64,000 bases of DNA, taken from positions 270,148 to 334,147 of the forward strand of contig JAFCMP010000075.1 of the NCBI GenBank assembly GCA_017506865.1, given 5' to 3'. Origin of the DNA: Tribonema minus. Taxonomy: Eukaryota; Sar; Xanthophyceae; Tribonematales; Tribonemataceae. Made by a program: the position numbers and the translations under genes. The notes below the pieces were generated by a model that had not been told where the DNA came from, searched no databases, and saw only the letters and a list, made by a program, of their open reading frames with translations. The number at the start of each line of letters is the position of its first letter. The first letter of the stretch is position 1. Shown piece after piece: positions 26,666-55,245 of the stretch.

Positions 26666-26695
26666 TGCACAGGTAGAGAATTCTCTACCTGTGCA
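26666..26695. repeat. Left terminal 30-bp perfect palindrome
   Basis: The half-site TGCACAGGTAGAGAA (26666-26680) is followed immediately by its exact reverse complement (26681-26695). The same 30 bp forms the right tip. Candidate telomere-resolvase target with its centre between 26680 and 26681. Confidence 0.9.
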
Positions 26696-27060
26696 TACCA
26701 CGGAATACCGTTACATACCGTTACGTACCGTTACATACCGGGCCTCCAAACCCTAGTTAGCATTAGGGCTTTGTTATACATATGATATACCGGCCATATA
26801 CCGTATATGCTATGTAGTACGTGTGGTATACCGGTCATATATCGACCGTGGGTAGGACGCTGGTATAACCAGATTTCGACGCCCTTAAGCCCTTCCGCCA
26901 GCGGCGGCTGTATACGGTCATGTCCGGGTCTGACTTTCGGAGGAGCCACATGGGGTGTGTCTGAACGACAGGGTGTGTGATTACTGCTGGCGGCGGCTGC
27001 CTGATGTCAAGTGAAAGTGTGGTGATGCTCAGCTGCCGACATAGTGGTGATGCTCAGCTG

Positions 27061-27300
27061 CCTCCCATCACTCGCGCATTGCCATGATGCTCGCAAATTG
27101 CCTCCCATCACTCGCGCATTGCCTTGATGCTCGCGGATTGCCTCCCATCACTCGCGCATTGCCATGATGCTCGCGGATTGCCTCCCATCACTCGCGCATT
27201 GCCATGATGCTCGCGGATTGCCTCCCATCACTCGCGCATTGCCATGATGCTCGCGGATTGCCTCCCATCACTCGCGGATAGTGCCATGATGCTCGTGGGG
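27061..27300 (+). repeat. 40-bp tandem array in the left TIR (six copies)
   Basis: The unit begins CCTCCCATCACTCGCGCATT and continues GCCATGATGCTCGCGGATTG. Copies start at 27061, 27101, 27141, 27181, 27221 and 27261, the last one divergent. The right TIR has only three. Confidence 0.92.
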
Positions 27301-27952
27301 CTGCCATGGTTCATCGCGGCATCGTCATGATGCGTCGCGTGGCTGCCGTGGCGCTGATGGCACTGATGCTATCATGCCCTGATGAGTGAGGCCTGTGGGG
27401 ATGTCTCGAGGTGCTGCCTCGCTCTGGCGCCGTCACGGTATCTCGAGGTGCCTCGCGGCGTCGGCATGTGAACGATAATTGCTCGAACCGTGGGCCACAG
27501 ACCACTCGTCCTCCTTTACTCGCGTATCAGCAGCTTGCCACATGACACATTTTCTCGACCTCGTTAAGAAAATTGATAAAGATGAGAGATGGGGGCTTTC
27601 GGAACTTTTAGAATTCGTGCATTTGCCCTCGTCAATCGATTCTCGGAATGCGTCAGTAGATGTTCTCATTTTGCCCATCTCTCGCCTTTTCATCCTAAAG
27701 AAAGCATTGTTAGCATACACACCCGAGGGCACGGAGTGACCTACCACCCCTCTCGCCTTGTTAACGGACACTTGAACGTGGCGATCGATGAGCATCGGTG
27801 TGTATGAGGCCTACCAACCCACTCGTCCTCCTCTACGGATGTCCCGATGTGCTCCGTGAGGCAGCGCAGAACGGTGCTGGAACGTGCCTCACGCCCAGAG
27901 TGTTCTGAGGCGCCCTTTTTTTGCGTCAGCTCCATCACTCCCGACGATCATC

Positions 27953-30900
27953 ATGGCATCTCTACAGGACTACCCCCAGCTAAAACCTCGTGTAGTGGCA
28001 GAGCGGGTCCATGAGCACGTGCTCGATGCCTTCATCGAGGCTGCCGACCTCGTGGCTGCCATGGACCGCCGTCACAAAGCCGGAATACTGGCTGAGAGTG
28101 ATGGCAGTCCCAACGGACATCAGAAGAGCTTGCTGAAACGTAATCTCTACAACGATCTCAAGACTTGCAAGAGCTTGCCGCGTGTGGACGGCTGCCGGCT
28201 GGTGCGTTACAACTTCGCCAGCAACAGCAAATTCGGCCGATTGTTTGCGGGCGGGGCGTCCCTACAAACGTTTCCCCGTGACATCCGCGCGGCCCTCACG
28301 TGTGGACTGCTCCACGACCTCGACATGGTGAACTGCCACATGCACATCATCGCCCACTGCTGCCGGAGCCATGGCATCGACTGCCCGTTGCTCACGGAGT
28401 ACATCGCCTGCCGCGAGGCGGTGCTGTCGCGCATCGCCATGGCCAATGGGCTGATGCGCGACGACGTCAAGTGTGTGATTCTGAAGGTCACATACGGAAG
28501 CAGGGCGACGTACGACTCGCGCCCCGTGCACGACACGTGGCTGGGCATGTACGCGATGGAATGCAAGCGCATCGCGAAACAGCTGTGTGGCTGTGCCGAA
28601 TCGCCACACGCCGACTTGGTCACCAAATCAAAGACTAGCAACCCGCTCTTCTCTGCAGTGAGCAAGCTAGCTTGCGGGGTGGAGAACTGTGCGCTCGGCA
28701 TCGCTCTGTCGATCTTGCCTACCACAACTCAAGCGGCCGCTCTCGCGTTCGACGGCTTTATGCTGTGTGGCGACATGCCCGCTGGCCTGCAGGAGCGCAT
28801 GACGGACAAGATATACGAGAAGATCGGTGCGCGCTTGCCCTTTGTGGAAAAAGCTATACCGCATACGACTGTGGACATGCTGCGCGCCAAGTTCAAGGTG
28901 CCAGTCGCGGTCGTGACAGCAATGCCGGGCGCGATGCCGGATTGGATGGAGGAGGACTTCACACCAGACTTCGATGTCGATGCAGAGGAGCAAGCAAACG
29001 AGGCGAACGAGGCATACGAGACGGAGAGCGTCGACGGAGTTGAGCAGGATGAGCCCGACCGTTACTTGGCGGACGGTATCATTTTGCTCTGCCCGGCGGC
29101 GATGATCTCGATCGCTGCGGGCATGGGAGACGGCAAAACGTGTGCGATAATGGCTTTCGTCGAGCACGCGGTCAGGGAGGGAAAGACCGTCGTGTTTGCG
29201 ACCCAGCGACGTATCATGATCCTCTCTACACTCGGGAAAGAGCTCAGACAGCGAGGCATCCCGTTCACAGACTACAGGGACATCAATGGCGCCATCAACG
29301 TGGCGGATCATCAGGTGCTGCTCATCGAGTACGAGTCACTGCATCGTCTCCTAGCCGGCACGTACCACTGCGTCATCTACGATGAGTTCCGCTCCATCAT
29401 CAACACCATGAACAGCTCCACCAACGGGGTTTTCAAGATCGATAACTACGAGCGCTTCGCCGACTTGGTGGTGACCGCGGACAAGAATGTCTTCACCGAT
29501 AGGATCCGCTCCGCCCATCCGCGACCCTGAAACCCAAAAAGCAACCGAGCACTTATGCTATAGTGAGGTCAGTCAAGACCCTCAAACTGTTGAAGTTAGA
29601 TAAAATAAGGTTGTTGGCCTCACTCAGACGCACCAGAAGAGCTCTTGGTTGTTGAAGTTGAGATTGGTGGAGCCATGCTATTGCACGTTGAGCAGTGATA
29701 TGACAGTTGAAGTTAGCATGAAGTTGAAGTTTAAATATCACCGTTGAATTTCAATACCACATCAGGATCAATATCAACTTCAACAAGCGAGTAGTCGGCA
29801 GATGCCCCTGACATGGGGCTACAGCATGCCATAACCCAACTTCAATACCAGTTCTGTCCTGGAGACTTTACTACTGGACAAGCGCCTCGGTTGCTTCTTG
29901 GCTTTCAGGGTCGCGGATGAGCGGAGCGGATCCTCGATGCAGACATCACGACGGATGGTGCCTGTTGTCAAATCGAGGACCGCTTGGCAGAGAGACGGGC
30001 GAAGGTGCGGACGGACGAGTACATGCGCCTGGCCCGCGCTACCCGCGACGCCGGGCGTGATCCTACAGATCTACTCGCGCAAGCATTGAATAGCGTGCCC
30101 GAGCCAGTAATGAGGTTCGATCCCCAGATCCGCCGCATGTGTCGGACAGCCAACTTCGAGCAGGCCGTCTGGCGTGCACGCGCTGATCTGCACAAGGGTC
30201 GTCGCATCATGATTGCGTGCGGCTCTAGGGAGATGGCTACGGTGCTGGAGCAGCTGCTCATTCCCTACCTCACGACTGGCTCCATGGGCCTGTACACTAG
30301 TGAGACGGATAACACTGCCGACCTCATCAACATCGACGACGTCTGGGATGGGCACCAGTGTATCATATTCACCACAGTCATCACCACCGGCATCGACTAC
30401 AACACCCTGATCCACCGCATCTTCATCGTCCCGTGTGCCAACACGGCGACAGCCCGCGACGCATTCCAGCAGGGAGGGAGGGGTCGGAACGTCCTGACCA
30501 ATGAAATCTGGATAGCTGTCAAAGAGGGCGCGTACCAGGAAGCCCTGCAGAAGCCTTTGACTCGCTGTGAGATTGACAAAACCGCTCAAGAGGAGATGGA
30601 TCGCATCGCTGCGGGTGGCGTCATCATGGCGCGTAGCACTGTGGACGCTGCGGCAGCACTGGTGCTCACAATCGGGGCGGAGGCGGTGACTGTCAACTAC
30701 CGCCGAGCGCATCCCGACCTGGTAGTTGCCGCCGGCTACTCTAGCATGGAGTCGCGGTTCTGCGCCACCATAGTGGACTACGTCCGCATGATGCTCTACC
30801 TACTCAACACGAAGGGCTACATCGCCACGACCAACTTGCACCCGCTACCGCGCGCCGCTCGTGAGGTGCTCCCTATCATCAAAGAAGAGATCAGCAGCAT

Positions 30901-31590
30901 ACGCGACGGCTCCAAGCTGCTGAAACAGCAGGCGATGGACGCGATAGACGTGTCCGGCGTCGTCGCTTCAAAGGAGGACATGCGAACGCTGGAGGCATTG
31001 GCGGCTAGGCGCAGGATCCCGGAGGACGTCAGAATCGCCTTCAACGAGAGGTACGGTCACATGTCCCCATCGGAGCTGCGTGCTACCCAGCTGAAGGCGC
31101 GGACGGCTCTAATGTTCCCCAGTGTCGAGGCTCTGCAGCTCGGCGTGCTGGCGCACAAAGTCGAACGTCACATGCATGTGCTACAGAACATCGGCATCAT
31201 CGAGAGACCTGATACAGCGGTGAGAACGCTGGGCTTCTTCAACGATGCGCACAAGGCGCCCGAGCTGGGCACCATACACTCCGTGCCGGAGTTACTGCTT
31301 CTCAACGAGGTCACCACTGCCATCGGCATGGACTGCTCGACAATCACACAATCGTCCTTCAGCAAAGCATCGATCACGCGAAGCTCGACGGCGCGCTCCA
31401 CGAACTGCGCTCGCTGGGTTGTGGCGTGGGTGTCAAGGGCACCAGCTTCCGAATCGTGTGCGCTAAGAAGATTTTGAAGCGCGCCCTCGGACTGAACGTG
31501 GTCATCAAGAAGCCGACCGCCTACGTGCCCGCAGTGCAGGAGCTGCTCGACATGAAGCCAACGTGGCTCTCTGGTCAGGAGTGGTATTAG
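27953..31590 (+). pseudogene. TV-Pol-like (family A-like) DNA polymerase fused to SF2-type helicase, broken by a MITE and a frameshift
   Basis: The N-terminal domain shows three palm-type motifs in order: HDLDMVNCH (motif A, about residue 122), KCVILKVTYG (motif B) and ALAFDGFML (motif C). This is the pattern of the transposon-virophage polymerases related to family A. The helicase part follows: Walker A GMGDGKT (about nt 29121-29141), a VLLIEYESLHRL motif and a YDEF Walker B (about 29377) as in origin-binding-type helicases, then after the insertion TTGIDYN and the arginine-finger motif QQGGRGRN (about 30466). A 434-bp MITE (29501-29934) brings in a TGA at 29528; removing it with one 4-bp duplication restores the frame exactly. 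Near 31340 a one-base shift moves the frame; the tail then runs to TAG at 31588-31590. Probable role: replication of the viral genome. Confidence 0.78.
29501..29934. mobile_element. 434-bp MITE-like element inside the polymerase/helicase gene
   Basis: The ends are inverted repeats of about 50 bp (AGGATCCGCTCCG... and ...CGGAGCGGATCCT), flanked by a CGAT duplication (29497-29500 and 29935-29938). The interior has no coding capacity and contains TTGAAGTTGAAGT-type motifs seen elsewhere in the window. It is non-autonomous; its transposase family cannot be told from this copy. Confidence 0.85.
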
Positions 31591-32197: not shown

Positions 32198-32842
32198 GTC
32201 GCGCTTGACATGTACGCAACATTTTAACAGTCAGAGAGTGTCTCACGATGTGAGACCGTCTTGGCCATATGCGTTTTGTCAAGCGCTTTCATTGTGACCA
32301 TGGGCGGCAAGAGATTGCGGAGGACGTCTGTCGCGGAAGGGAACGCGTCTGCGCGACTACCGAGCGAAGTCGTGCGCCACATTCTCGATTACAAATTGCA
32401 GTTCGAACAGGTAGGTGCCTTGGCGTGTCGCCTTCGATGCTGTCGTAAAGCAGATACGGCTGGGGTTGCAGCTCGGATGGCGTGGTCTCCTCAAGAGGAC
32501 GACAAAAATATGCGTCTGCTGCCGGCACAATTACAGCACGCTGGAGGATATGGTCCGTGGATGTGTGTGCGACATCTGTTACACCATGGTGTGCATGCGT
32601 CGGGGCAGACATGGCGAGTGGACGACACTCGAGATGCTGCTCGTAACGACGCTGCGTCGCATCGACGAACCAATGTACTGACGCAGTTTTCTCTCTGTGC
32701 CTTGTGCCTCGCCATGTCTGATGCTGATATCATGCGCCGTATCCGCGCAGCATACAGCGCTGTTATGAACGATGTACAGGGCTCGAGCTGGCGTGATGAA
32801 CTGAGATCAACGTCTGAACAGTGCGTCAGACTCTGTTGTAAA

Positions 32843-33204
32843 TGATCCGAAAGGAAAGGCCTCTGGGGATGCTCCATGAGCAGGCCAAGCCCTTCTGGGA
32901 AACAGGAGCTCACTCTCAGGATGTAGGCTAACCACTTGCATGGAGAAAAGACCACACACCTGGTGTATCGGTGATGGCTCAGCTCCAATGAGTCCCTGCT
33001 GTCCAGCAGCTGGCTAGCAAGAGTTAGTACCCAAGCAAGCCACAGAGATGCTGCCCCAGATTGTTCTGTGCAAGTAGTTCCTGGAACAGTCCAAGCAAAT
33101 TCCTAGGAACGGTCCTCAGGTGAACTGGCCTGAAGTACACTTGTACAGTACAGTCAAAGGTGTACACAGCACTTGAACTGCACTGTGACATGGACTTTGT
33201 ATCA
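32843..33204 (-). repeat. 3' LTR of the gypsy element
   Basis: It is 362 bp and matches 42365-42726 except for three visible substitutions. On the minus strand it starts TGATACAAAGTCC and ends GGATCA. Confidence 0.92.
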
Positions 33205-33216
33205 TCCCTCTTCTTT
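33205..33216 (-). other. Polypurine tract of the gypsy element
   Basis: The minus strand reads AAAGAAGAGGGA directly before the 3' LTR, the expected plus-strand priming site. Confidence 0.75.
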
Positions 33217-33450
33217 GAAAGGGCCGCCGTCCACGGCGCGCCCATGAGACGCACGGCGTTTTATGATACTTGTTAAACGCAGAAGACAGCATCGGTGTTC
33301 ATTGTCGCATCATCACCACCACGGTACACGCTCTCAAGTCCCTCATTGGCCGGCTACGCGGCGCGTGTCAAACCCTAGGCGGTCTGGCGTGCACCGGGTG
33401 CGTGACGATGACACTGCTCTCCAGTGCTAACGCACAGGGTCAGCACAGCT

Positions 33451-36198
33451 TCAACGGCGACGCGGGCGTTTGCGCGGTCCTAGGTCATTCTGGCCCAACG
33501 CAACCTGAGGTTCTATGGGAGTGTGGGGGGTTTCAGGCTGCTCTATGACTTCCTGTGCCAATAGCAGGTTCCACGAGGAAGGTTCAGCGTTGCGATCGTC
33601 GCGGTAGTACTCTTGGCGGAGCTTCAGGCGCCTCTCCATCGGCCTGTTTCCGCGCGTATTGGGGAACTCTACATCAAATACGTGCTCCCCGCGCTCACGG
33701 TTCGATGAGATGTGCCTTAGCAGTTTGCCACGGCTCCAGCCCGTTGGGAACCTGTAGCGCAGTACTTGCCCGACGTACAGTGGCCCAAAGTTGGTGGGAA
33801 CGTGGGGGCACACCGTGACTCGCACGCCTGGGGGCGGGTCAGCTGTAACATCTGCAGCATGCTCAGCAGGGTCAGGCTTGCCTCGTTCACGCGCCAGCCT
33901 GCGTAGCCTGTCTCGCACACCTTCTGCTAGCAACTTCCCCGAGCGTACCTGTGCCGATGTCAGGTCCTCCCAAATTCCATCCGTGTAACGCACTCGCCAC
34001 TTAAATCGTACGAAGTCGCGCACTTGGCCCCAAATGTACTCAGTGGTCTCGGGATCGGCACCTGAAATTTGCCTTACCACCTGAGTGCCACAAGGGTAGC
34101 GCTTCAACGCTTCGTCTTTAGGTAGTGAGCGGTCCTCACGTGGGCTAGGGCGTTCTGCGTACGACGGCATGTGACCTTCGTGTTGGATCTCATAGAGGGC
34201 ATGAAAAGTGTCTAGCACCCAGGACGGCACTATGAAACTCTCTGCAAACTCCTTCTCATGAATCCACTCAGACGAGGTACCGTCGCGTGCCAGCCACTTG
34301 TATGACCAGCCACCGTCCTCATTAGCCCTGCGGTCTAGAATTCTCTGTAACCGCTGATCAAGGTCCAGTTCTTTCAGCTGCTCTGGGTCTACGGCGGCGT
34401 GTACTCCGTCGCTGACCAGTCTAGCAGGCCTAGGGTGATACGGCTTCATGTTTTCCACGTGTGCATCAGTGAGCCGCACACGCGCGCCATTGAGTTGACA
34501 TTGAAATGACAGCCCTGAGTCACCGTAGGGTGCTATCAGCCTCCAGGGTCCGGTGAAGCGCTCCTCCAGGCCACTCGCGCGTCCTTCAGAGGGCGGCTTT
34601 TTGACCCATACATAGTCGCCTACACTTACATGCAGGGTGCGTTGAATCTTGTCGTTACGAGCTTGGATGCGCTCAGCCCTGGAGCTTAACGCCTCGCCTA
34701 TGACAGACTCTGCCAGCTTCAGATTCTCTTGTAACCGCTTCACCTCTATGTGCAGATCTGTCGTGCACTCTGGCTTAGAGATGAGGGCATCTAGGGGGAA
34801 TCTGGCCTCGCGACCGAAGACACAGAAGAAAGGCGTAAGGCCTGTCTCTTCCCTGGGAGTGTTCCTCAGTGCAAACTGTACGATGTCAACTTGTTCGTGC
34901 CAACGGTTCTGGTAGTGCGAGCACACTCTGGCCAGGGCCCTCTTGACACGACCATTCAAGTTCTCAGCGACACCGTTAGACTGGGGGTGGTACGCGCTAG
35001 TCTCTACCTTCTGAACAGCAAAGGCCCGGCAGAGGCTAGTCACCAACGCACCCACAAATTCCTTGGCTCCGTCCGAGCACAACTCCTCCACCAGTGTGCC
35101 ACATTCAAGCAGCACCTTCGCAAGCAGGGGAGCTACCTCAGCAGCGGATCTCTTTTTAGTGGGGAAAATCCAGCAATAGCCAGACCTGGCTTCCACTATC
35201 ACGAGTAGGTAGCGGTGCCCCTCAAGAGATATGACTCCTGGCTCAGTGAAGTCTACGTGAAGACGCTGCCACATGCGCTGAGGGGGCATGAGCACTTGCT
35301 TGTACTGAGCTGTCGTCTGAGGTTTGGTCTGTTGGCACGCTATGCAACTGCGCACGTAGTCGCGAATGTCAGCTCCCATGCCGCGCCAGTAGAAGTTCTC
35401 AAACACCTTGGCGTGCGTGGCGGCGGTCGATGGGTGCTGAGCGCTGCCATCGTCGTGACACATGCGTAGCACCAGGGGCTTCAGTGCCTCAGGGGTGACC
35501 CACTGTGTGATCAGGGCTCCCCTCTTGGGGCGACTGGCTGCGAAGTGCACCAACAGGCCATCAGGCTCTAGCGTGAAGAATTCTTGGTTCTGGGGTATGA
35601 ACTTTGCCAACTTGGCATCAGAAGGTTCATTGCGGTCCTCTAGGTAATTCCTCACAGCCATGCAGAAAGAGTCACGCCCTTGCCATTGCACAAATTTATC
35701 GCGCTCAAGCACTGCGGGCTGACCTGAGCTTCCTCCTGCAAGGTCCCCAGGGTGTTCCGAGGTTGCTGGCGCGGGGGGTTGAACAGGGCTATCAACTGAC
35801 ATCATGTCTACTTGAAGTTGAGGTTCCTGCTCGCTGCTGCTTTCACAGTTCTCGGTTTCGGTACGCTCACCCGTTTGCTGTGCCAAGAGTGATGCGCAGC
35901 TATCCCACACGCCATCTGGGTACACTCCGGTGCGCAGATTGCAAAGCATTGACGCCAGCGCCAGCTCCTGCAGCTCCGGCTCCGACTGCTCCGGCTGCTC
36001 ACCTCCCTCTTCTTTGAAAAGCACGGCGTCCCCACTGCTGCTTTCAAGCGAGGTGTCAAACAAAGCATCTTGCACTTGTGCGGGGTTAAGTTTGAGCATG
36101 GCCTCGCTCAGGTCTGGGGATACCTGTGCGACTTTGTTAAAGCGCATGCCAGGGCCATCTGGGTATGAGGCATAAGCCCCAATCCACAGGGCTATCAA
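33451..36198 (-). CDS. Gypsy ORF3: integrase with chromodomain-like tail
   Basis: The ORF is 915 aa. The zinc-binding HHCC module (about 35340-35465, ending CIACQQTK) precedes the catalytic core with Asp in HVDFTEP, Asp in LCSDGAKEFVG and Glu in GVAENLNGRVKRA. Downstream, RILDRRANEDGG...YKWLARDGTSSEWIH resembles a chromodomain, which in chromoviruses steers insertion to marked chromatin. The ORF starts inside a 403-bp duplicated block and is probably the detached C-terminal half of a single pol polyprotein. Confidence 0.88.
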   Translation of the reverse strand: MIALWIGAYASYPDGPGMRFNKVAQVSPDLSEAMLKLNPAQVQDALFDTSLESSSGDAVLFKEEGGEQPEQSEPELQELALASMLCNLRTGVYPDGVWDSCASLLAQQTGERTETENCESSSEQEPQLQVDMMSVDSPVQPPAPATSEHPGDLAGGSSGQPAVLERDKFVQWQGRDSFCMAVRNYLEDRNEPSDAKLAKFIPQNQEFFTLEPDGLLVHFAASRPKRGALITQWVTPEALKPLVLRMCHDDGSAQHPSTAATHAKVFENFYWRGMGADIRDYVRSCIACQQTKPQTTAQYKQVLMPPQRMWQRLHVDFTEPGVISLEGHRYLLVIVEARSGYCWIFPTKKRSAAEVAPLLAKVLLECGTLVEELCSDGAKEFVGALVTSLCRAFAVQKVETSAYHPQSNGVAENLNGRVKRALARVCSHYQNRWHEQVDIVQFALRNTPREETGLTPFFCVFGREARFPLDALISKPECTTDLHIEVKRLQENLKLAESVIGEALSSRAERIQARNDKIQRTLHVSVGDYVWVKKPPSEGRASGLEERFTGPWRLIAPYGDSGLSFQCQLNGARVRLTDAHVENMKPYHPRPARLVSDGVHAAVDPEQLKELDLDQRLQRILDRRANEDGGWSYKWLARDGTSSEWIHEKEFAESFIVPSWVLDTFHALYEIQHEGHMPSYAERPSPREDRSLPKDEALKRYPCGTQVVRQISGADPETTEYIWGQVRDFVRFKWRVRYTDGIWEDLTSAQVRSGKLLAEGVRDRLRRLARERGKPDPAEHAADVTADPPPGVRVTVCPHVPTNFGPLYVGQVLRYRFPTGWSRGKLLRHISSNRERGEHVFDVEFPNTRGNRPMERRLKLRQEYYRDDRNAEPSSWNLLLAQEVIEQPETPHTPIEPQVALGQNDLGPRKRPRRR

Positions 36199-36588
36199 CT
36201 GACATCATGTCTACTTGAAGTTGAGGTTCCTGCTCGCTGCTGCTTTCACAGTTCTCGGTTTCGGTACGCTCACCCGTTTGCTGTGCCAAGAGTGATGCGC
36301 AGCTATCCCACACGCCATCTGGGTACACTCCGGTGCGCAGATTGCAAAGCATTGACGCCAGCGCCAGCTCCTGCAGCTCCGGCTCCGACTGCTCCGGCTG
36401 CTCACCTCCCTCTTCTTTGAAAAGCACGGCGTCCCCACTGCTGCTTTCAAGCGAGGTGTCAAACAAAGCATCTTGCACTTGTGCGGGGTTAAGTTTGAGC
36501 ATGGCCTCGCTCAGGTCTGGGGATACCTGTGCGACTTTGTTAAAGCGCATGCCAGGGCCATCTGGGTATGAGGCATAAGCCCCAATCC
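35784..36588. repeat. 403-bp tandem duplication splitting the pol gene
   Basis: 35784-36186 and 36187-36588 are near-identical direct copies (period 403, not a multiple of three). ORF2 reads through one copy, shifts frame at the junction and stops; ORF3 picks up within the other copy. Confidence 0.9.
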
Positions 36589-38950
36589 TGCCTATATTCG
36601 CGGGGGAATCCACGACTTCTTCGCTCTCAAAGCGTACCCCAGTAGGCGGAGCAGGTCCTGCATCCGTACAGTCTGGCCACTGCTCATCAGCGTGGTCATA
36701 CTCTCTGGGGCCCAGGATTTCCGTCATTTGAGGCATTCGTGAGGGGCAGTCCGCATTGCCATTGTCCTTACCAGGGCGGTGTACGACCATGACGTCATAT
36801 TCCTGGAGGCGCATGGCCCAGTGCAGGAGTTTGCTATTATGGTTATTCAGTTTTAGCAACCAGCGCAGTGCCGACGCATCTGTAATGACGGTTACTGGCC
36901 TACCCCACACGTATGAGCGGAAGTTGTTCAGGGCCAGCACTACAGCAAGGCACTCCAGCGCGGTGGCACCTAGCTTTGCGTCTTGCACTGAATTGACTTT
37001 GCTGCAAAATGCTACAACTACCTCTCTGGCTGGCTTACCATCCACCGTCTTGGCACGGCGGGTGTGAGCCCATGGAAAATCTTTGTGCCGCTCTCGAAGC
37101 TTCTCAAGTGGCACAAACTGGGATAGCACTCCAGCGACTGCCAACTTGCTAGCATCTGTGTGTACTATGAATGGCAGGTCAAAATCTGGGTGCATGATAA
37201 CGGGTGCGCTCGACATCGCGCGTTTGAGCTCTGCGAGTGCATCTCGACGGCGTTTATTCCATGTCATGTCAGCACCGTCCCTGGTACACTCCATCAATGG
37301 CGCCGCGATGGACGCAAATCGGTGAATGTAGCGCCTGTAGTAGTTGAAACATCCCATCAAGACTTGCATGAGACGTTTGTCAACCTTGCCGTCCTTACCG
37401 AGCGGGGGCATCATGTCCACCATGGCCTTGACCTTGTCTTCACACGGCCTAATGCCATACCGGCCGACTTTGTGACCTAGGTATGTCACTTCCTCGGCGA
37501 AGAGTTGACACTTGTGCCTTGACACACTCATGCCATACTCCTCCACGCGACGCAGCACATCGTCCAAGTGAGCTATGTGATCTTCAAGCCCTTTGCTGTG
37601 AACCAGCACATCATCCACATACACGCACGCATGAGTCTGTCTGGCAGCGCCTAACAGCTCGTGCATGCAGCGCGTGAAAATGCTGGGCAGACATACTAGT
37701 CCAAACGGCGCGACCTTGTACTCCCATAGGGAGCCATCGGGCCCTCGGAAAGCCGTCTTGCAAGAGGACTCTTTGGTCATGGGAATTTGCCTATAGCCTG
37801 AGGCAAAGTCCAGAGCTGAGAAAATTCTTGAACTTGCCACCTTTTGAATCAAGTCCTCCATGTTGCCTAAGCCGTATTCGTCACGTCTTGTGACCTTATT
37901 AAGCGGTATGTAGTCAACACAGAAGCGTATCTTGCCCTTTTGAGCCACCAGCACAGGGTTGCTGGCCCATGGCCCACTAGCAGGTCTGATTTGCCCACGC
38001 TTCCTTTCGTCCTGAATCGCTTGAAAAATGATTTTGGCCTCGCGCTCGGCCCAACGCCGCGCCTTGTCGGCTATGGGGGCCGCGTCTCCGGTATCAATGT
38101 CCACGTCAAAGCGATCCGTGACCCTAGGGTTTTTGGGGTCTTTTGCAAAGGCAGCACGTCTGCGGCGTAGCACTTCCATGACCCGATCGTAGTACTTAAC
38201 ACCGTCTTTGTCGCGCTCTTCCAACATAGGTATCACCTTACCATCCCGCTTCAGCACGTCTGCCAGCTCCTCGTCCGTGCAGAGCTCTAAGGTGGCATTG
38301 TGCTCCTCAGCTACCTTACGCCTGTGAGCGGTGCGTTCCGCCTCAGCCTGTGTGGTTGCTGTGGGATTTGAGCTAGGCTTCACCTGATTTACGGTTGGGG
38401 GGTCGCTAGAAAGCCGGCTGAGCGCTATGCGCGTGAGGTTAGCTGTGAGCGTCTCTTGGTCAACGTCTAGACCGCACACCATCTCCGGTGCTTCAACAGC
38501 GCCTAGTATTGCTCCCTTACGGATGAGCACTGGCATTGTGGAAGTGTTTTCAGCCATGAGCCTGAGTGGTTTGTTCGGCATGGCAGTATCTACTGAGTCC
38601 AGCAACACAACGCCTTGCTCGGCCAACTTGTTCACGGCCGTCACCGCTTCTGGGACGTCTGGGGTTAGCAGCACCTCTACAGGACCTGTGCACTGCAGTG
38701 GCGGGTGAGACACCACTTCCAGCGTGTGCGCGGTGTCAGCGTCAATGACCTGGTTTGAGGCTGCTCTGAGAAGATATTTGCGTTCTGGCAGTACAGGCTT
38801 GTCCTTGGTGTGTATCCTTGCTGAGCCTATCTTGATGGAGTTTGCTTCGGGGGGCTCCAAGGCTCCAACGCGCGCACGTTCACGCATGGGCACAGCGGGG
38901 CCTGACGAGCCAGCGGGATAGAATTTCATCCCGTGCTCGTAGGAGATCAC
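36137..38950 (-). CDS. Gypsy ORF2: reverse transcriptase and RNase H
   Basis: The ORF is 937 aa. RT motifs: YIPLNKVTRRDEYGLGNMED, FSALDFASGYRQIPM with the first Asp, FGLVCLPSIFTRCM, and the YVDD catalytic box (plus-strand 37610-37621). RNase H follows with VHTDASKLAVAGVLSQ, a Glu in TALECLAVVLAL and an Asp in VITDASALRWLL. The start overlaps the end of ORF1 by 71 bp in the frame one base downstream, consistent with a +1 frameshift during translation. The last about 20 residues are an artefact of the 403-bp duplication. Confidence 0.92.
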   Translation of the reverse strand: MISYEHGMKFYPAGSSGPAVPMRERARVGALEPPEANSIKIGSARIHTKDKPVLPERKYLLRAASNQVIDADTAHTLEVVSHPPLQCTGPVEVLLTPDVPEAVTAVNKLAEQGVVLLDSVDTAMPNKPLRLMAENTSTMPVLIRKGAILGAVEAPEMVCGLDVDQETLTANLTRIALSRLSSDPPTVNQVKPSSNPTATTQAEAERTAHRRKVAEEHNATLELCTDEELADVLKRDGKVIPMLEERDKDGVKYYDRVMEVLRRRRAAFAKDPKNPRVTDRFDVDIDTGDAAPIADKARRWAEREAKIIFQAIQDERKRGQIRPASGPWASNPVLVAQKGKIRFCVDYIPLNKVTRRDEYGLGNMEDLIQKVASSRIFSALDFASGYRQIPMTKESSCKTAFRGPDGSLWEYKVAPFGLVCLPSIFTRCMHELLGAARQTHACVYVDDVLVHSKGLEDHIAHLDDVLRRVEEYGMSVSRHKCQLFAEEVTYLGHKVGRYGIRPCEDKVKAMVDMMPPLGKDGKVDKRLMQVLMGCFNYYRRYIHRFASIAAPLMECTRDGADMTWNKRRRDALAELKRAMSSAPVIMHPDFDLPFIVHTDASKLAVAGVLSQFVPLEKLRERHKDFPWAHTRRAKTVDGKPAREVVVAFCSKVNSVQDAKLGATALECLAVVLALNNFRSYVWGRPVTVITDASALRWLLKLNNHNSKLLHWAMRLQEYDVMVVHRPGKDNGNADCPSRMPQMTEILGPREYDHADEQWPDCTDAGPAPPTGVRFESEEVVDSPANIGRIGAYASYPDGPGMRFNKVAQVSPDLSEAMLKLNPAQVQDALFDTSLESSSGDAVLFKEEGGEQPEQSEPELQELALASMLCNLRTGVYPDGVWDSCASLLAQQTGERTETENCESSSEQEPQLQVDMMSVDSPVDWGLCLIPRWPWHAL

Positions 38951-41696
38951 GATCTCCTACGGAGCCGTACTTGCCAAAGAAGTTTGACCCTAAGATTGCC
39001 TGGTAAGGCAGGTCCACGACGTAGAATCGGTGCGTCAGCAGGTGGTCTTTGAAGCGTACCTGAGCGTGCACCACCCCTTCTACAGGTACCGACTTCTTGG
39101 CGTCAGCGAGCTCCACCGTAGTGAAGTCCCCATCAGCCAGAGGGCAGATGGTGCCCGGCGGCAGCTTGTGCGCTGAATCTTTGTTGATGAACTCAGCCTC
39201 CGCGCCGCAATCCACCAGTGTATCCAGACCAAACTCTTGCACGGCATCGCCCACCTGTGTGCGCATGGTCATGTGCACAAAGCCATTCTTGCGTGGCCTC
39301 CCTACCGGGGTGACTCTGTGGAGTGGCATGGGCGCTTTGCCTCTTGCTGCCCACCTAGGTTCCAACTCGTGCAGTGTTATGCGAGTCTGCAGTGGTGTCG
39401 CTGAGTCAGAGTCAGGGTTAGCGCTCTCTTCTACCATCGGCGTCTTGGGTGTTGCAGTCGACTGAGGCACTGCTGGCTCAACGGTTACTCTTGGTGAGTC
39501 AGAATCAGAGTCAGACTCGTCGTCACCGCGTTGCCACTGTACTTCATTTAATTGCACTGGCTCACCTTGGCGCAGCGAAGCAAGAAACGCTCTCCCTTTC
39601 TCCCAACACCAGTTCGCAGCACTCCCTAGCGCGCTTGAGCAGGTCCCGGCGATCCTCAGTAGTGCTGGCTGCGATGCGTCCACGACCCACTCCGGCGGCG
39701 GCGCCGTGTGATCATGCACTGTTACCTCTCCAGGAGTTACGTCAGGGCCAGCGGGGGCAGGTCTCTCCCAACAATTGGGCAGAGAGGCAACGGCATGAAC
39801 ACACTGCATCAGGGCGCTTACAGCCGCGGGCTGTACTAGGTCAGCGGCCCACTTGCGTCTCTGGGTGAGTGTGCCTTCAGGGTAGGGCTCATGGTAGCCC
39901 AGGCACTCCATCACCTGTTCAGGCGAGAGTATCAATGCGTCCTTTGTAGGACCGGCATCCTTGGCTCTCTGTACGTACCTTGTGGGACCCTTGCCAGGTT
40001 GGCGAGTCACAGGGCTAGGCAGTGGCATGTCAGTAGAAAGCACGCCAGCACGGTGCGGTTGACGAGGATCCCAGTAAAATGTGTCCTCCATGCAACCAGT
40101 GCAATCGCGCACAGTCTTTGGAGTACTGCTGCGAAAGCGCTCATTCAACAGGGCATTCAGGCGGGCAAAACGTGCAGGGGTGGCCTGGGTGTTGCACGCA
40201 GACACAGTATAGATGCGCTCGCGTGAACTTCCACCATCAACATCAGTGCCACGAAATTGCACCTCAAAGGTCGAATACCCCGCCTGACGCATGTGGCCGT
40301 CGGCGCAGCCCCATGCCCCAGACAACAGCATTCGAGGCACATTCTCGTGAAAGACCAATTTTGGCCGTACATTTACAGCAAGCTGTGCAACGGAGGGCAA
40401 CACGCTGGCCGCTTCGCCTTCAACGCCCTTGCCCGAGGGCGAGAAGTCAACACATGGGGCAGTGACCCAGAATGCATCGGGTTCCAGCTGCTTGAGGCGC
40501 TTGAGCACTGCTGGACTGGCGATGTCTGCACATAGAACTTCTGTGCCAGGGAACTGGTGCTTGTACGCCTCGCATGTGTATTCGGCCCTATCTACAGCAA
40601 GGACCACTTCAGCCTTGACACCTGTGAGTCTGGCAAAGTCCTCTAACCCCCTATGTACACCCCCCACCCCGCAACAAAGCTCTGCCACTCGCAGTGGTCT
40701 GGCCGTCACGTCGGGTTCTCCGTCGTGAGCGCACGCATCCCCCTTCCTAGTCTGCAAGTGCACGAAAGTGTCACGGGGGGTGGCGCACAGATCGGAAGCA
40801 AGGTCAGTGAGATCGGCATTCCCACTTACCGCTGTAGACGCCGCGTACGGCACGCTGCGTTTGCGCTTTGCGTCAGCTCTGGCGTCGGTGTCATGGTCAT
40901 TGCACCTAGCCACGCAACAGGCGCACATGATAGCTGCTAGCATGCGAGTACCGACCTCACGGCTTAGCAAATGGTTACGCGTGCCAGTGACTTCGCAGGC
41001 TGCGGGATCAGCCTCTGGGTTCACCTGAGCAGTTGCATCACCGGCCACTTTGCTGCTCTCGACGGTGGTGTTGATGCGTTGATCCAGCGCGCGCTCAAGC
41101 TCCTGGACCGTCGCTTCCAGCTCTGCCGCGGTGGGCACCGCAGTGAGGGAAGGAGGCAGAGTCGTGCGCGTGGCGAAAGGGTCTGGTGCGTGGTAGAAGG
41201 GCGCGAAGCCTGGCGTGAAGGAGGGGCGCGCTGATGAGGCCGGCGAACGAGTGCCGAGAAATGAGACGGGGGACGTCATCTCGGCCGCCTCCTTGACGGC
41301 GCGTCCCGCGAGCTGAGCCAGGGCGCCCTCTGGCATCAGCGGCAGGGCGCGACGCAGCCCTTGCAGTATCTCGTTGAAGTCGGGTTGAGGAGCGGAGGTC
41401 GTAGGCGGGACGCCAAGACCCGCGCCGGAGGGGTCCGTGGAAGCAGGGAGCGACACCGGGGCGGCTCCGGTTGCGGGGGCGGTGGTGGTCGCCGTCACTG
41501 CGACGGTCGAGGGGGCGGCGCTCGACGTCGCTGATGAGGTTAGACCGGCCGACGACGTGAAGGGTTGCGTCGCCGGCTGCTGCTCGGGGGGCACGAGCGC
41601 TTGCTGCTGCACACCGCCACCGTTCCCCTCGCCTCCCGGGGTCGTTCCAGCCTCCCCGGAGCTGTCCGTCGCCGATCTTGATACGCTATCCGCCAT
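38880..41696 (-). CDS. Gypsy ORF1: Gag-like region, cytosine-5 DNA methyltransferase and aspartic protease
   Basis: The ORF is 938 aa. Residues 1-320 are Ser/Ala/Pro/Thr-rich; no zinc knuckle was found, so Gag identity is only inferred from position. Residues about 334-640 form a full C5-MTase: motif I RVAELCCGVGG, catalytic motif IV APCVDFSPSG, motif VI HENVPRM, motif VIII SSRERIYTVS and a C-terminal LSPEQVMECLGYHEPYP...PAAVSAL region. Residues about 808-905 are a retropepsin with LVDCGAEAEF and AILGSNFF. Catalytic residues look intact. Methyltransferases have been reported in retrotransposons of a few algae and dinoflagellates (work of de Mendoza and colleagues); here the domain lies between the N-terminal region and the protease. 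Confidence 0.88.
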   Translation of the reverse strand: MADSVSRSATDSSGEAGTTPGGEGNGGGVQQQALVPPEQQPATQPFTSSAGLTSSATSSAAPSTVAVTATTTAPATGAAPVSLPASTDPSGAGLGVPPTTSAPQPDFNEILQGLRRALPLMPEGALAQLAGRAVKEAAEMTSPVSFLGTRSPASSARPSFTPGFAPFYHAPDPFATRTTLPPSLTAVPTAAELEATVQELERALDQRINTTVESSKVAGDATAQVNPEADPAACEVTGTRNHLLSREVGTRMLAAIMCACCVARCNDHDTDARADAKRKRSVPYAASTAVSGNADLTDLASDLCATPRDTFVHLQTRKGDACAHDGEPDVTARPLRVAELCCGVGGVHRGLEDFARLTGVKAEVVLAVDRAEYTCEAYKHQFPGTEVLCADIASPAVLKRLKQLEPDAFWVTAPCVDFSPSGKGVEGEAASVLPSVAQLAVNVRPKLVFHENVPRMLLSGAWGCADGHMRQAGYSTFEVQFRGTDVDGGSSRERIYTVSACNTQATPARFARLNALLNERFRSSTPKTVRDCTGCMEDTFYWDPRQPHRAGVLSTDMPLPSPVTRQPGKGPTRYVQRAKDAGPTKDALILSPEQVMECLGYHEPYPEGTLTQRRKWAADLVQPAAVSALMQCVHAVASLPNCWERPAPAGPDVTPGEVTVHDHTAPPPEWVVDASQPALLRIAGTCSSALGSAANWCWEKGRAFLASLRQGEPVQLNEVQWQRGDDESDSDSDSPRVTVEPAVPQSTATPKTPMVEESANPDSDSATPLQTRITLHELEPRWAARGKAPMPLHRVTPVGRPRKNGFVHMTMRTQVGDAVQEFGLDTLVDCGAEAEFINKDSAHKLPPGTICPLADGDFTTVELADAKKSVPVEGVVHAQVRFKDHLLTHRFYVVDLPYQAILGSNFFGKYGSVGDRDLLRARDEILSRWLVRPRCAHA

Positions 41697-42337: not shown

Positions 42338-42364
42338 GTTATCCCGAGAGTTGGAGCTGAGCCA
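42338..42364 (-). other. Primer binding site of the gypsy element
   Basis: Directly after the 5' LTR the minus strand reads TGGCTCAGCTCCAACTCTCG, starting with TGG as expected for pairing to a tRNA CCA end. The tRNA was not identified. Confidence 0.45.
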
Positions 42365-42726
42365 TGATCCGAAAGGAAAGGCCTCTGGGGATGCTCCACG
42401 AGCAGGCCAAGCCCTTCTGGGAAACAGGAGCTCACTCTCAGGATTTTGGCTAACCACTTGCATGGAGAAAAGACCACACACCTGGTGTATCGGTGATGGC
42501 TCAGCTCCAATGAGTCCCTGCTGTCCAGCAGCTGGCTAGCAAGAGTTAGTACCCAAGCAAGCCACAGAGATGCTGCCCCAGATTGTTCTGTGCAAGTAGT
42601 TCCTGGAACAGTCCAAGCAAATTCCTAGGAACGGTCCTCAGGTGAACTGGCCTGAAGTACACTTGTACAGTACAGTCAAAGGTGTACACAGCACTTGAAC
42701 TGCACTGTGACATGGACTTTGTATCA
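42365..42726 (-). repeat. 5' LTR of the gypsy element
   Basis: It is 362 bp and pairs with 32843-33204. The flanking TAAA (32839-32842 and 42727-42730) is the target duplication. Confidence 0.92.
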
Positions 42727-42935: not shown

Positions 42936-44369
42936 TTAAGCAGCACGTTGAGCGCGCCACTGCTCGGTCTTTTGCTTCCACGCCGTGAGAGCCTCGGGAT
43001 CTTGGAACTCACGCACGTGTTTGTCACGATCTCCGCCGGCCGCCTGATCCACCTTCACCACGTCTCCCCTCGTCAATAGTCTGGGAAAGTCCTCGAGCTT
43101 CACGAAGTAACTTCAAGTTGGATGCGCTGTAATAAACGACTCGGTAAAGCTGTTGACCGTACCTCGGGCCATGACTGCTTTTCAGCGTGTGAGCCTTCTT
43201 GGCAGCAGCCATCTTCGGGTGCAATGCGGTCATTGTCACACGCACCATGTCGCCAGCTTTTAACGGGAAATTGTACTTGGCTGAGGGGTCGTTGCCCGAG
43301 GCGTTCGCACGCAGCCTCTTGCGCACTGTCTTCAGTATCTGTTCTGGCAGATCAGCTACCGCCAGATCCATTGAGCGAAATCCATGAGCCGAATTCACTG
43401 AACCGTTAGCCGCTGCAACTGCCCTGCGTAGCGCCACGGCCTGGTAGGCGGCCCCCTTGTCGCCCTGCAGGCTATAAAGAAAAACTTTCACGATCTTGTT
43501 TGCCCCCTCTACTTGCCCTTGTGATGTTGGCGAGTGCGGCGGCCCGAAAACCATCTTGAAGCCCTTGCGCGCTGCCAGGTCAGTCATGAGAGCGTTGTCG
43601 AACTCCTGTTGTCATCGAGGAGTGCAAGGCGGCGTGTTAGCTATTATCAGATCAGTCACATGCATCAACAAGACTTCGTATACAGGCAGAAGCGTGCACT
43701 ACTCACTTTTCCGTTGTCACACTTGAAGGTTCGAATCGGAAAGGGCATGGAGTCTAGGATTCGTTCGATTGCAGGTACGATGGTCTCACTTTTCTTACCC
43801 CTAACTACGACGGCATATATCTGCTTGGTGAACGCGTCAACGAGAACGAGTGCGCGCCGTGCCAGGTTGCCATCCCTCAAGGCGCCCCCCTCGTCGACGG
43901 CAGCCTTGGCCAAATCAGTCAAGTCACAGTACACGATCTTGCCAGGCGCAGTGGGCACAACGGGCCTGGCGCTCTGTGATCTGTGCTTGTTGCGGAACTG
44001 GCTGTGCTCGTCGTTAATGGCCAAAAACCTCCTGACTTGAGAGAGAGAGACGCCGATGTACTTGCTCTTCACAATGCCGTACAATTTGTGGACTCCAAGA
44101 CTTTTTGGCAAGTCCTTGAACTCAGCCTCGAGAACCCTGAACACTAATGGCGCATCACGATCATGCGGTCCATGTACATGTAAACGCCTTCACCTTGATC
44201 ATGAAGCTCGCCCAAGTTCTTGTGGCCAGCGAGCCAGCAAGTCACTCGTGGAACAGAACTTGAACCGAGCAACGAGATTCAAGTGCGCCGTCTCATCTTT
44301 CGTGACGGGGGCAATCGATGATACACCTGTCGTCGCTTTTTCGAGGAGCACATCTGGACATGGTGACAT
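42936..44369 (-). pseudogene. Polinton-type rve (DDE) integrase with one intron, two TGA codons and a frameshift
   Basis: The core is in two minus-strand exons, 44144-43707 and 43605 downward, joined in phase 0 across a 101-bp GTGAGT...ACAG intron. The triad is Asp in YCDLTDL, Asp in FKCDNGK/EFDNAL across the splice, and Glu in SQGQVEGANK. Upstream in the same frame 44369-44202 reads MSPCPDVLLEKATTG...; two TGA codons (44199-44201 and 44190-44192) separate it from the core. Near 43110 a one-base shift occurs, after which the other frame gives YFVKLEDFPRLLTRGDVVKV and ends WRAQRAA, TAA at 42936-42938. The 5-bp target duplication and TG...CA ends are the expected signature of this enzyme. Confidence 0.82.
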
Positions 44370-47471: not shown

Positions 47472-47499
47472 CGCTTGTACTGTCAACATATTTAAAAAA

Positions 47500-48320
47500 T
47501 CAGAAACTGTTGGTTATCGTCTGCCTCGGCAAGTCGCACCACATGTAGCCAATAGGTTCGTTCGTGTACCATCTGAACCTGCGCTCGAACTCGACCTTGG
47601 TGCAAAATCCCGACGCTGCTCCCACATCTCTTCCATCTCCTTATCGTTCATTGTCTTGAAGAACGCCCAGTGAGTGGACTTCAATCGCAACACCCTAGGG
47701 ACACCAGACCGAATATCGTTTGGGCTGTCATGATGACAGAACAACCGAGGCCATTGGCGATGTGTCTTGAGGTCAAAACGAAGTTCGGAAATGGATTCTT
47801 CGACCCCCTGCTAAAGAGCGCCGATTGTTGACTATCGTCGACGAAGAGCAGAAAGCTGGGCCGCCTCGGGACGAGTGGCATGAAGCCCCTGCCCTCCAGC
47901 AGCATCTCGTCGACGGGGGGTGACCGGCTCGCCCCTCGTGTACCGAGCGAGAGCTACACTGTACTCCAACTGCTGTTTGTAAACCTCTGCTGCGGCCTCG
48001 CACGTAGCTGTTATCTCGTTGAGAGAGTCGAAGACGGCAGGGCCGATGTCGCTGTACACCTTGTCCCCTCGAGCGGGGTTGATGATGTTGCGGTACAGCG
48101 TGTTACTAGCAGCAGTTGGGGAAATAACGAACACTTGCGTACAAGACCCCTCCCGTTGGAGAAGTTGAATGAGTCCGATGGCTAGCCACGATTTGCCACA
48201 ACCAGTGTGTCCTGAGATGCAGTAGGCGTCCGGAGGACATAACCCCAGAGGGGTTGCGAAATGCGATGTTATTAATGTTGTGGATGACGACAATCGAAGA
48301 ACAGCTAAGGGCGCATGCAC
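47500..48320 (-). pseudogene. Genome-packaging ATPase (FtsK/HerA, A32-like) with multiple frameshifts
   Basis: Walker A is SGHTGCGKSWLA, followed by VFVISPTAASNTLYRN, as in A32-type packaging ATPases. A one-base change in a C-run near 47920 moves the frame to DEMLLEGRGF...PSFLLFVDD (Walker B) and GCSVIMTAQ. A second shift near 47725 leads to DIRSGVPRVLRLKSTHWAFF. A third near 47615 leads to the natural end FERRFRWYTNEPIGYMW...TITNSF and TGA at 47500-47502. All pieces are collinear, so this is one gene broken by small indels (or several assembly errors). The first ATG is uncertain; 48320 is a GTG. Confidence 0.78.
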
Positions 48321-48932: not shown

Positions 48933-48965
48933 TTATTTTCTGTGATACAGTGTGTCGATATAATA

Positions 48966-49935: not shown

Positions 49936-49956
49936 GATGCAAAGATCACAAAGCAC

Positions 49957-50325: not shown

Positions 50326-50368
50326 GTGTTTCCATCAATAAAATGTTGTATTGAGATCAAACTGCGAG

Positions 50369-52065: not shown

Positions 52066-52067
52066 GT

Positions 52068-52466: not shown

Positions 52467-52528
52467 TTGTACCTTACAATGCACTAGCATTTTTTCAACG
52501 CCACAGAGCGAAGTCATGCAAAAGTTTT

Positions 52529-52624
52529 ACACGCGACGTTCATGCATCATGTGACACGCGACGTTCATGAATCATGTGACACGCGACACTCATGCATCAT
52601 GTGACACGCGACACCCATGTGACG
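52529..52624. repeat. 25-bp direct repeats (3.8 copies)
   Basis: The unit is ACACGCGACGTTCATGCATC plus ATGTG, with copies starting at 52529, 52554, 52579 and 52604. It is the only sizeable non-coding block among the right-hand genes, between the small capsid-type gene (minus) and the resolvase 3' end. Confidence 0.8.
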
Positions 52625-52747
52625 ACACACCAAGGCGCGAGGCGAGTCGGCCACAGACATTGTAAGCACACACTTCTTCATTTACATGACATGGCGTCTT
52701 GAGCGTGGGTCACATGTATGCGTGCTGCACGAAACATTCGCAAACAC

Positions 52748-54067
52748 TCAATATGTCTCCAGCGCCTCGCAGGCAGACTTCAACGCTGCGGCTTTGCGAA
52801 GCTGCTCGGATGCCCTCTGGCGCGACTCTGCCTCGTCCGCCCTCAATTTCTCGATTGACGCACGGAAGCCGCTATCGTCGACCGTGACGTTTGCCGCGAG
52901 CTTCGCACGCTTGCGCGATATGATGTCCTCGGCTGATCCGCCCTCCGTGTTGATGGGACCGAAGTCACTGCCAATTTCCGCAGGGGGGGCCGCATTCATC
53001 CTGACGTTCTCTGAGTTCTCGGCAGCGTTCGGGGCAGCGTCAGCGGTCGCGGCGATGGCGGCGATGGCGGCGATGGTGTCGGCTGTCTGGTGATCGATGT
53101 TGCAGTACGCAAGAGTTACCTCCAGCGTCTTGTGCGCGAAGACTTCCTTGCAGCACAAGCCCATCTCCTTCCCCACGTGGTTGTTGAAAAAGTAGCTGGC
53201 CAGGTAGACGGCACGCATGCGGTGGGGCGTGAAGCACTCGTCGAACTTCCCGGCGTACGCCACGGACAGGTCCTTGAGCTGGGGGATCGAGCGCAGCTTA
53301 TTGCGGGCATCGAGTTGCACAGTTGTCTCGTGTCCGGCGCTGATGCGACGCAGTCAGGTGATGGCCTGGCAGTACTCCTGCGGTGACACCCCGACGATAG
53401 GGAAGCTGTGATCCTTCACCACCACCTGCTTCTTGGAGAGCCGAGACGCTATGACGTGGGTGTCTGGCTTGTCGGGGTCGACGATGAACGTGATGACATC
53501 GGAGACAGCGCCCAGTTCCTCCACAAACCGCCGACCGCCGCAGCCACGAACTGCAATACTCAGCTTCCATGCCTCACGCCATGCTCCGTCGTCTGTCTCG
53601 TCGTCTTCGCCGGCTGACAGGGCGGCCTCGTATGCGCGTGCGGCCAGCAGGGACTCCTCACGGCACCAGTCGATGAGAGGCGCCGTGTCGTACACGAGGC
53701 GGCCCTCATTAGCGCGCGCGTTGCGGGTTTCTGTGCTCTTGACGCGCCTCTGGGCGGTGGCCTTCGCTGCATATACGTGATCCTTGAACTTGGCAAAGTC
53801 TGGCACCGCTGGGTCCATGGCTAGTATGTTGGCCCGCGTGAATAGCCATGCCTGACTGAAAGAGGATATCGTGATGGTAGGGAAATCTGGGTTGACACAG
53901 TCTTCCTTGTCACCACAGTACAACAGAGAGAGGGCATTCACCATGGCCTGGACGTCCTCTCGTGACATGGCCGCTCGGACAGCAGGATCGAGTGCTGTCC
54001 ACCTCAGAGTCTCCACGAAGACATTGCCCATGTCTACGACACGAGGGGTGGTTTGACTGAAGCCCAT
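52748..54067 (-). pseudogene. Tyrosine recombinase resembling telomere resolvases (protelomerases), with one in-frame TGA
   Basis: The frame is 439 codons from ATG 54067. Catalytic-type motifs in order: an Arg in RGCGGRRFVEELG (about residue 177; compare the TGRRxxE box of protelomerases), a candidate Lys in SRLSKKQVVV, H-x-x-R in TPHRMRAVYL (His 282, Arg 285), a second His in VFAHKTLEVT, and the nucleophile Tyr 321 in TLAYCNID. The HxxRAxY spelling is closer to telomere resolvases than to phage integrases (HxLRHT). A TGA at codon 238 (53354-53356) splits the gene in one frame; everything downstream, including the His/Arg/Tyr cluster, stays in frame. A charged C-terminal extension of about 110 residues follows. 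It lies just inside the right TIR and is transcribed inwards. Confidence 0.7.
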
Positions 54068-54133
54068 GGCGGATGGTTGTGTGCAACGTGTGTATAAAAG
54101 AAACAAGGGGTTCGTAGCGTGAGGTATTCCACT

Positions 54134-55245
54134 GGCGTGAGGCAGCACGTTCCAGCACCGTTCTGCGCTGCCTCACGGAGCACATCGGGACATCCGTAGA
54201 GGAGGACGAGTGGGGTGGTAGGCCTCATACACACCGATGCTCATCGATCGCCACGTGCAAGTGTCCGTTAACAAGGCGAGAGGGGTGGTAGGTCACTCCG
54301 TGCCCTCGAGTGTGTATGCTAACAATGCTTTCTTTAGGATGAAAAGGCGAGAGATGGGCAAAATGAGAACATCTACTGACGCATTCCGAGAATCGATTGA
54401 CGAGGGCGAATGCACGAATCTAAAAGTTCCGAAAGCCCCCATCTCTCATCTTTATCAATTTTCTTATCGAGGTCGAGAAAATGTGTCATGTGGCAAGCTG
54501 CTGGTACGCGAGTAAAGGAGGACGAGTGGTCTGTGGCCCACGGTTCGAGCAATTATCGTTCACATGCCGACGCCGCGAGGCACCTCGAGATACCGAGACG
54601 GCGCCAGAGCGAGGCAGCACCTCGAGACATCCCCACAGGCCTCACTCATCAGGGCATGATAGCATCAGTGCCATCAGCGCCACGGCAGCCACGCGACGCA
54701 TCATGACGATGCCGCGATGAACCATGGCAGCCCCACGAGCATCATGGCACTATCCGCGAGTGATGGGAGGCAATCCGCGAGCATCATGGCAATGCGCGAG
54801 TGATGGGAGGCAATCCGCGAGCATCATGGCAATGCGCGAGTGATGGGAGGCAGCTGAGCATCACCACTATGTCGGCAGCTGAGCATCACCACACTTTCAC
54901 TTGACATCAGGCAGCCGCCGCCAGCAGTAATCACACACCCTGTCGTTCAGACACACCCCATGTGGCTCCTCCGAAAGTCAGACCCGGACATGACCGTATA
55001 CAGCCGCCGCTGGCGGAAGGGCTTAAGGGCGTCGAAATCTGGTTATACCAGCGTCATACCCACGGTCGATATATGACCGGTATACCACACGTACTACATA
55101 GCATATACGGTATATGGCCGGTATATCATATGTATAACAAAGCCCTACTGCTAACTAGGGTTTGGAGGCCCGGTATGTAACGGTACGTAACGGTATGTAA
55201 CGGTATTCCGTGGTATGCACAGGTAGAGAATTCTCTACCTGTGCA
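54134..55245 (-). repeat. Right terminal inverted repeat (about 1,112 bp)
   Basis: Counterpart of 26666-27895, with three rather than six 40-bp units (about 54743-54853), which accounts for the length difference. Its inner edge lies 66 bp upstream of the resolvase ATG. Confidence 0.9.
55216..55245. repeat. Right terminal 30-bp perfect palindrome
   Basis: It is identical to the left tip, with the half-site TGCACAGGTAGAGAA at 55216-55230 and its reverse complement at 55231-55245. Host sequence begins with the CTTCT duplication. Confidence 0.9.

Follow-up and report, generated by a model that had tools for sequence, protein, structure and literature searches.

In N15-like phages with their protelomerases, in Agrobacterium with TelA and in Borrelia with ResT, a tyrosine recombinase (YR) stands beside a symmetric palindrome, which in six phages ranges from 22 to 92 bp. 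For stramenopile algal viruses, the available part of PMC13236599 describes a telomere resolvase, an internal telRL-like site and fold-back reads in endogenous giant viruses (phaeoviruses) of Ectocarpus, for which a hairpin-telomere stage has been inferred and whose site is symmetric. Polinton-like viruses and virophages, in the portions of PMC8547959 and PMC12220804 at hand, combine terminal inverted repeats (TIRs), short target duplications, an rve integrase and a YR in one element, with the YR read as a second integrase; the same portion of PMC8547959 describes the rve and YR genes of mid-GC EMALE virophages as two predicted integration enzymes. Here we analysed a stretch of 64,000 nucleotides from the alga Tribonema minus (contig JAFCMP010000075.1, positions 270,148 to 334,147; hereafter the window), in which a virus-like element at 26666-55245 carries a perfect 30-bp palindrome at each tip, TIRs and a flush target duplication, together with a YR and an rve integrase.

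The Tribonema element shares with the N15, TelA and ResT systems the YR beside a symmetric palindrome, its site length falls inside the range of the six phages, and these resolvases are the nearest catalytic-domain fold in one low-confidence model. Unlike them, it is a eukaryotic provirus, its YR has an HxxR box and no muzzle or stirrup domain was found in the YRs with Pfam, its site lies at the tips of the integrated element, and its resolvase activity is predicted. Phaeoviruses differ in being giant viruses whose separate YR integrase, according to the part of PMC13236599 available to us, is thought to act on a circle with 2-nt homology; their telomere site is internal to the integrated copy, and that paper contrasts it with integration by TIRs and duplications. 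Polinton-like viruses are recognised by an rve integrase or YR, TIRs and a short target duplication, all of which were found here. We consider it probable that the window element is a dead copy, resembling a provirus, from a polinton-like family whose free genome was linear and hairpin-ended, with a telomere-resolvase-like YR and with insertion carried out by the rve integrase.

The tips of the element and the adjoining YR gene are arranged as follows:

26661..26665, no strand: left target-site duplication CTTCT, 5 bp, read directly and matching 55246-55250 flush
26666..26695, no strand: left terminal perfect palindrome, 30 bp, the proposed telomere-resolution site
26666..27887, plus strand: left TIR with a tandem array of 40-bp units inside, from a repeat search
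52748..53353, minus strand: C-terminal piece of the YR past an in-frame stop (HxxR, HK, Tyr)
53354..54067, minus strand: N-terminal piece of the YR ending at the in-frame stop (GRRxxE, K)
54145..55245, minus strand: right TIR, from a repeat search
55216..55245, no strand: right terminal perfect palindrome, 30 bp
55246..55250, no strand: right target-site duplication CTTCT, 5 bp

The identical perfect palindromes that a sequence-only reading had placed at both outermost tips were read directly and their coordinates confirmed; they occupy the very ends of the TIRs, which are about 1.1-1.2 kb long and complementary at 95-99% by segment. The CTTCT duplication abuts both palindromes exactly. With no more than one unpaired position allowed, the window contains no other TG...CA inverted repeat of 29-30 nt. 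The genome searched comprised 158 Mb in 554 contigs, with the window forming the end of contig C75. The insertion recurs on contig C44, where 1500 bp of flank are identical and the YR is broken at the same place; this is another haplotype or an assembly copy, and a second independent insertion was ruled out by the identical flank.

In the mechanism we propose, the genome would exist free as a linear molecule whose hairpin ends are covalently closed, and its replication would give rise to TIR-site-TIR junctions that join two genome ends. The YR would act on the 29-30-nt inverted repeat, cutting to either side of the symmetric centre before resealing each half-site into a hairpin. The rve integrase would attach the unfolded repeat to the target through a 3' CA at the repeat's outer edge, with a 5-bp duplication as the result, so that the whole repeat would end up at each integrated tip; its substrate could be a hairpin that had been opened or a dimer junction still awaiting resolution. 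Hairpin ends, enzymatic resolution and cutting at CA are steps that we infer. The combination of hairpin telomeres with DDE integration is supported, though not proven, because symmetric sites co-occur with the YR and because of a fold ranking, and these two lines are taken up below.

Relatives were picked by protein similarity rather than by palindromes, with the two YR pieces of the window searched as separate queries. These pieces led to YRs on C511, C157 and C123 (C348 being a second copy of C123), and P0004, a protein recovered by way of these, to C92, C490, C2, C290, C544 and C57, as well as to more distant YRs on C160, C235 (three places), C179, C226 (two) and C353. A TG...CA inverted repeat of 29 or 30 nt lies by the YR in the window and in all nine nearer relatives, at 188-4248 bp from the YR frame, 3' of the gene in eight of the ten cases and 5' in two. 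Sites of clade B were detected once a centre of 1-4 nt was allowed, and were found in all five clade B cases. Simple shuffles of the window yielded no such site in 3.2 Mb and no repeat with arms of at least 13 in 0.85 Mb. Chance or an assembly artefact, to which we assign a negligible probability, was ruled out by the 13 distinct sites in many contigs, the two copies of the insertion, the six duplications and the absence of sites from shuffles.

The 13 distinct site sequences include those on C126 and C158 and an extra site on C157, and exclude a rearranged site on C76 as well as a C126 palindrome of 30 bp that lacks the initial TG. Complementarity holds in 187 of 190 pairs, and the three central pairs all match in 10 of the 13 sites, with two of three paired in the rest; in clade A the symmetry runs through the centre. 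The arm sequences diverge strongly between lineages, yet both arms change together, with 183 paired against 6 one-arm changes in one count and 57 against 4 in another, these being pairwise and non-independent counts. CpG transitions do not explain the differences between lineages. The clade B elements on C290 and C544 are 84% identical over 2.7 kb, rising to 91% in the 90 bp next to the tip; their arm sequences are quite different, each of them symmetric. Within the C157 element the palindromes differ between the ends, each being perfect, and the TIRs share 87% identity across 154 columns; this end difference could be accounted for by two CpG transitions.

The centres also bear on a different explanation, which we regard as unlikely, in which the tips would be Cre/Xer-type sites that the YR recombines to release the element as a circle, and reinsertion elsewhere would fall to the rve integrase. 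A Cre/Xer-type site consists of two binding arms and a 6-8-bp spacer. The size of 29-30 bp fits such arms and spacer, and the same site is usually present at both tips. In the element spanning C92 and C110, the two ends carry the centre in opposite states (TIRs inverted, centres parallel), which is the direct orientation that excision requires. In the C2 element, however, the centre is in the same state at both ends and the centres are inverted; a mix of flip and flop states, as hairpin loops permit, was thus seen in one of the two odd-centred elements with both ends known. A symmetric spacer is moreover unneeded for Cre/Xer exchange, whereas a hairpin does need symmetry, and the different centres at the C157 ends would hinder exchange unless the CpG transitions account for them. 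Cre-like excision alone leaves the symmetric centre, the inverted C2 centres and the differing C157 ends unaccounted for. Circularising YRs have been assumed for polinton-like viruses in the available parts of PMC4642659 and PMC12220804.

A genome search with the site sequences located partner tips, giving five elements of 20 to 38 kb that are complete on single contigs, the window element and the following four:

C511, 868501-888675: two-ended element
C157, 1058050-1095687: two-ended element
C57, 204001-225661: two-ended element
C2, 590591-611577: two-ended element

The C92 and C110 sites have inverted TIRs about 81% alike and share the flanking 5 bp GTGGC, and we take them for the opposite ends of a single insertion, apparently a sixth element. 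Exact flush duplications were found as CTTCT, GACAA, TGTTT, CAGTC and GTGGC, and the duplication on C57 (GTTAG/GCTAG) agrees at four of five positions. An rve match lies inside all six two-ended elements, and at eight of the ten YR loci (window included) one lies within the element or within about 9 kb; for C123 and C544, no rve was present among the matches listed. The presence of rve matches and 5-bp duplications with the same tips in six elements supports the sequence-only reading, which had proposed the rve integrase as the integration system alongside the palindromic tips.

The TG...CA edge coincides with the integrase joint in each of the six two-ended elements. The same fact suits an improbable alternative, in which the tips would serve a parvovirus-like rolling-hairpin replication as self-priming hairpins, or act as an end-processing signal for rve, and the YR would have another role. 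Once a hairpin had been terminally resolved and filled in, its opened end would carry a full palindrome, and for a few sites (C126, C158) no YR was found next to them. The site nevertheless adjoins the YR in nine of nine nearer relatives, and no rolling-circle or parvovirus-type nuclease was detected with Pfam among the 19 distinct window frames scanned, a set limited to frames that are neither short nor broken.

We also compared the YR itself with known recombinases. The frame at 54067-52748 on the minus strand contains the motifs GRRFVEE, PHRMRAVY, AHK and LAY, so that the GRRxxE, HxxRAxY, late AHK and Tyr reported earlier beside one TIR were all located, though an in-frame stop at 53354-53356 splits the frame. 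Both pieces keep catalytic residues; across 11 aligned relatives, R217, K245, H315 and R318 are invariant and H344 and Y353 nearly so. Such motifs alone are insufficient to show a resolvase. For an intact clade A relative, the fold model ranked telomere resolvases at the top in both aligners, above Cre and XerH, with a low predicted local distance difference test (pLDDT) score; this ranking also counts against Cre/Xer-type sites. Sequence searches against solved structures returned no recombinase.

Several observations weigh against a hairpin-telomere resolvase. Box II reads HxxR in 11 of 11 aligned sequences, where the N15-type consensus has a lysine. In hhalign, the fit of clade B to protelomerases (P 2.4e-6) was not better than its fit to six ordinary integrases (4.8e-6), and clade A fitted the six integrases slightly better (4.4e-4 against 2.8e-3 for protelomerases); neither clade fitted a second control of lambda, Cre and P2 (0.016 and 0.41). 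No Pfam resolvase match was obtained for the window YR pieces, clade A or clade B, and neither hhalign nor Pfam gave sequence-profile proof that the YR belongs to the resolvases. The HxxR box and the integrase-like profile scores also speak for Cre/Xer-type excision. The clade A model has a mean pLDDT of only 53.6 and low template modelling scores, and for the clade B model (pLDDT 49.7) no telomere resolvase appeared among the 50 of 133 matches listed, in which Cre had a probability of at most 0.08 and nothing was significant. Clade B sites, at 29 nt with 1-3 unpaired central nucleotides, are not perfect palindromes. No site was found in the 4.2 and 5 kb read around the distant YRs on C160 and at one C235 locus, the two of eight distant loci examined. 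The co-occurrence count covers YR-bearing loci, and the sites on C126, on C158 and beside the C157 element were found without a YR.

The earlier suggestions on the YR are supported, though not proven. Its resemblance to telomere resolvases stands on the clade A fold ranking, while sequence profiles place it about equally near ordinary integrases; the profile and structure comparison that had been proposed as a check favoured resolvases in the low-confidence clade A model, gave no preference in the clade B model, and in hhalign came out about even for clade B and slightly on the side of integrases for clade A. The co-occurrence of palindromic tips with the gene holds in the nine nearer relatives, and both distant ones examined showed no site in the 4.2 and 5 kb read.

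How linear ends are maintained in small eukaryotic DNA viruses that lack a protein-primed polymerase is an open question, and the role of YRs in elements that already have an rve integrase is a second unexplained matter. Both receive here one testable answer, for which intact relatives, such as the 412-aa protein P0002 of C123, and exact sites exist in one alga's genome. If true, hairpin telomeres would extend from phages, bacteria and phaeoviruses to polinton-like elements, combined with DDE integration; confirmation would mean that small eukaryotic viruses have a new means of keeping their DNA ends while still entering chromosomes. We give an even chance to the wider proposal that this is a eukaryotic virus lineage with TelA/ResT-like hairpin telomeres, in which the DDE integrase cuts the same site at its TG...CA edge and the telomeres are carried whole as tips, and that many "second integrase" YRs of polinton-like viruses and virophages may be resolvases. 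Neither "hairpin" nor "palindrom" is used in the main texts of PMC4642659, PMC7805220, PMC12220804 and PMC8547959. No paper linking polinton with protelomerase, or Tribonema minus with polinton, was found in a search that did not reach most subscription papers or any bioRxiv preprints, and among the matches listed in a further literature search none used the terms telomere resolvase or protelomerase. IMG/VR confirmed no relative with YR, rve or capsid-candidate queries, and a database of 5.8 billion proteins (partly with only about 8000 candidates scored) returned relatives only from the same genome and Tribonema proteins.

The remaining genes of the window element are as follows:

27884..29530, plus strand: helicase part 1, Herpes_ori_bp family (Pfam PF02399, E 5e-10)
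29984..31477, plus strand: helicase part 2, a separate open frame (Pfam PF02399, E 5.6e-4, just under the curated cut-off)
32842..42663, minus strand: nested long terminal repeat (LTR) retrotransposon of about 9.8 kb, with repeats 32842-33141 and 42364-42663 that are 99% identical
43024..43587, minus strand: probable C-terminal part of the rve integrase, assigned by position, no Pfam match
43665..44144, minus strand: rve (DDE) integrase core (Pfam rve E 8.6e-5, under the curated cut-off)
47832..48320, minus strand: P-loop ATPase fragment, with several weak P-loop Pfam matches, all under the cut-off

The helicase gene looks broken, falling in two separate frames, and the window copy as a whole looks dead because the YR has an in-frame stop and the rve integrase and helicase fall in separate frames. 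The rve core has 53 matching places genome-wide, some of them pieces of one gene. Pfam likewise detected no protein-primed DNA polymerase B among the 19 frames; the replication-type gene present instead is the Herpes_ori_bp family helicase. A candidate capsid frame at 51136-51924 had no Pfam match and no relevant sequence match in the PDB, where a double-jelly-roll major capsid protein was sought. The nested retrotransposon encodes its own integrase, reverse transcriptase/RNase H and cytosine-methylase domain and is foreign to the viral element; it is Ty3-like, and its frame 41696-38880 bears the C-5 cytosine DNA methylase domain (Pfam E 5.5e-17).

Further observations were made at the related loci. 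The C235 member (L058, 1494-2597) of a distant multi-copy YR family matched ResT-TelK_cat at E 0.0017, under the cut-off, with no terminal site in 5 kb, and C179, C226 and C353 score like it; this sub-threshold match was seen only in the distant YRs on C235 and C160, and in C160 Phage_integrase outscores it. Within the C57 recombinase frame (L053, 2-1210), a stretch of about 29 residues is duplicated in tandem. On C76 (L009, 939-1096), a tip related to the window TIR is rearranged; it holds tandem half-sites and a palindrome of 72 bp, and looks as though two halves of a telomere had become joined. On C290, 73 bp of tip including the site (L051, 1812-1884; L075, 372-444) recur as an exact direct repeat 1.56 kb further out. 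The extra C157 site (L035, 3756-3785) is a second TG...CA repeat of 30 nt with one central pair mismatched, about 265 bp outside the element, and is perhaps the tip of another element. Contig C126, absent from the YR and rve match lists, has a TG...CA site whose symmetry reaches 34 bp, and its perfect 30-bp palindrome without a TG start (L041, 768-797) lies 0.7 kb from that site.
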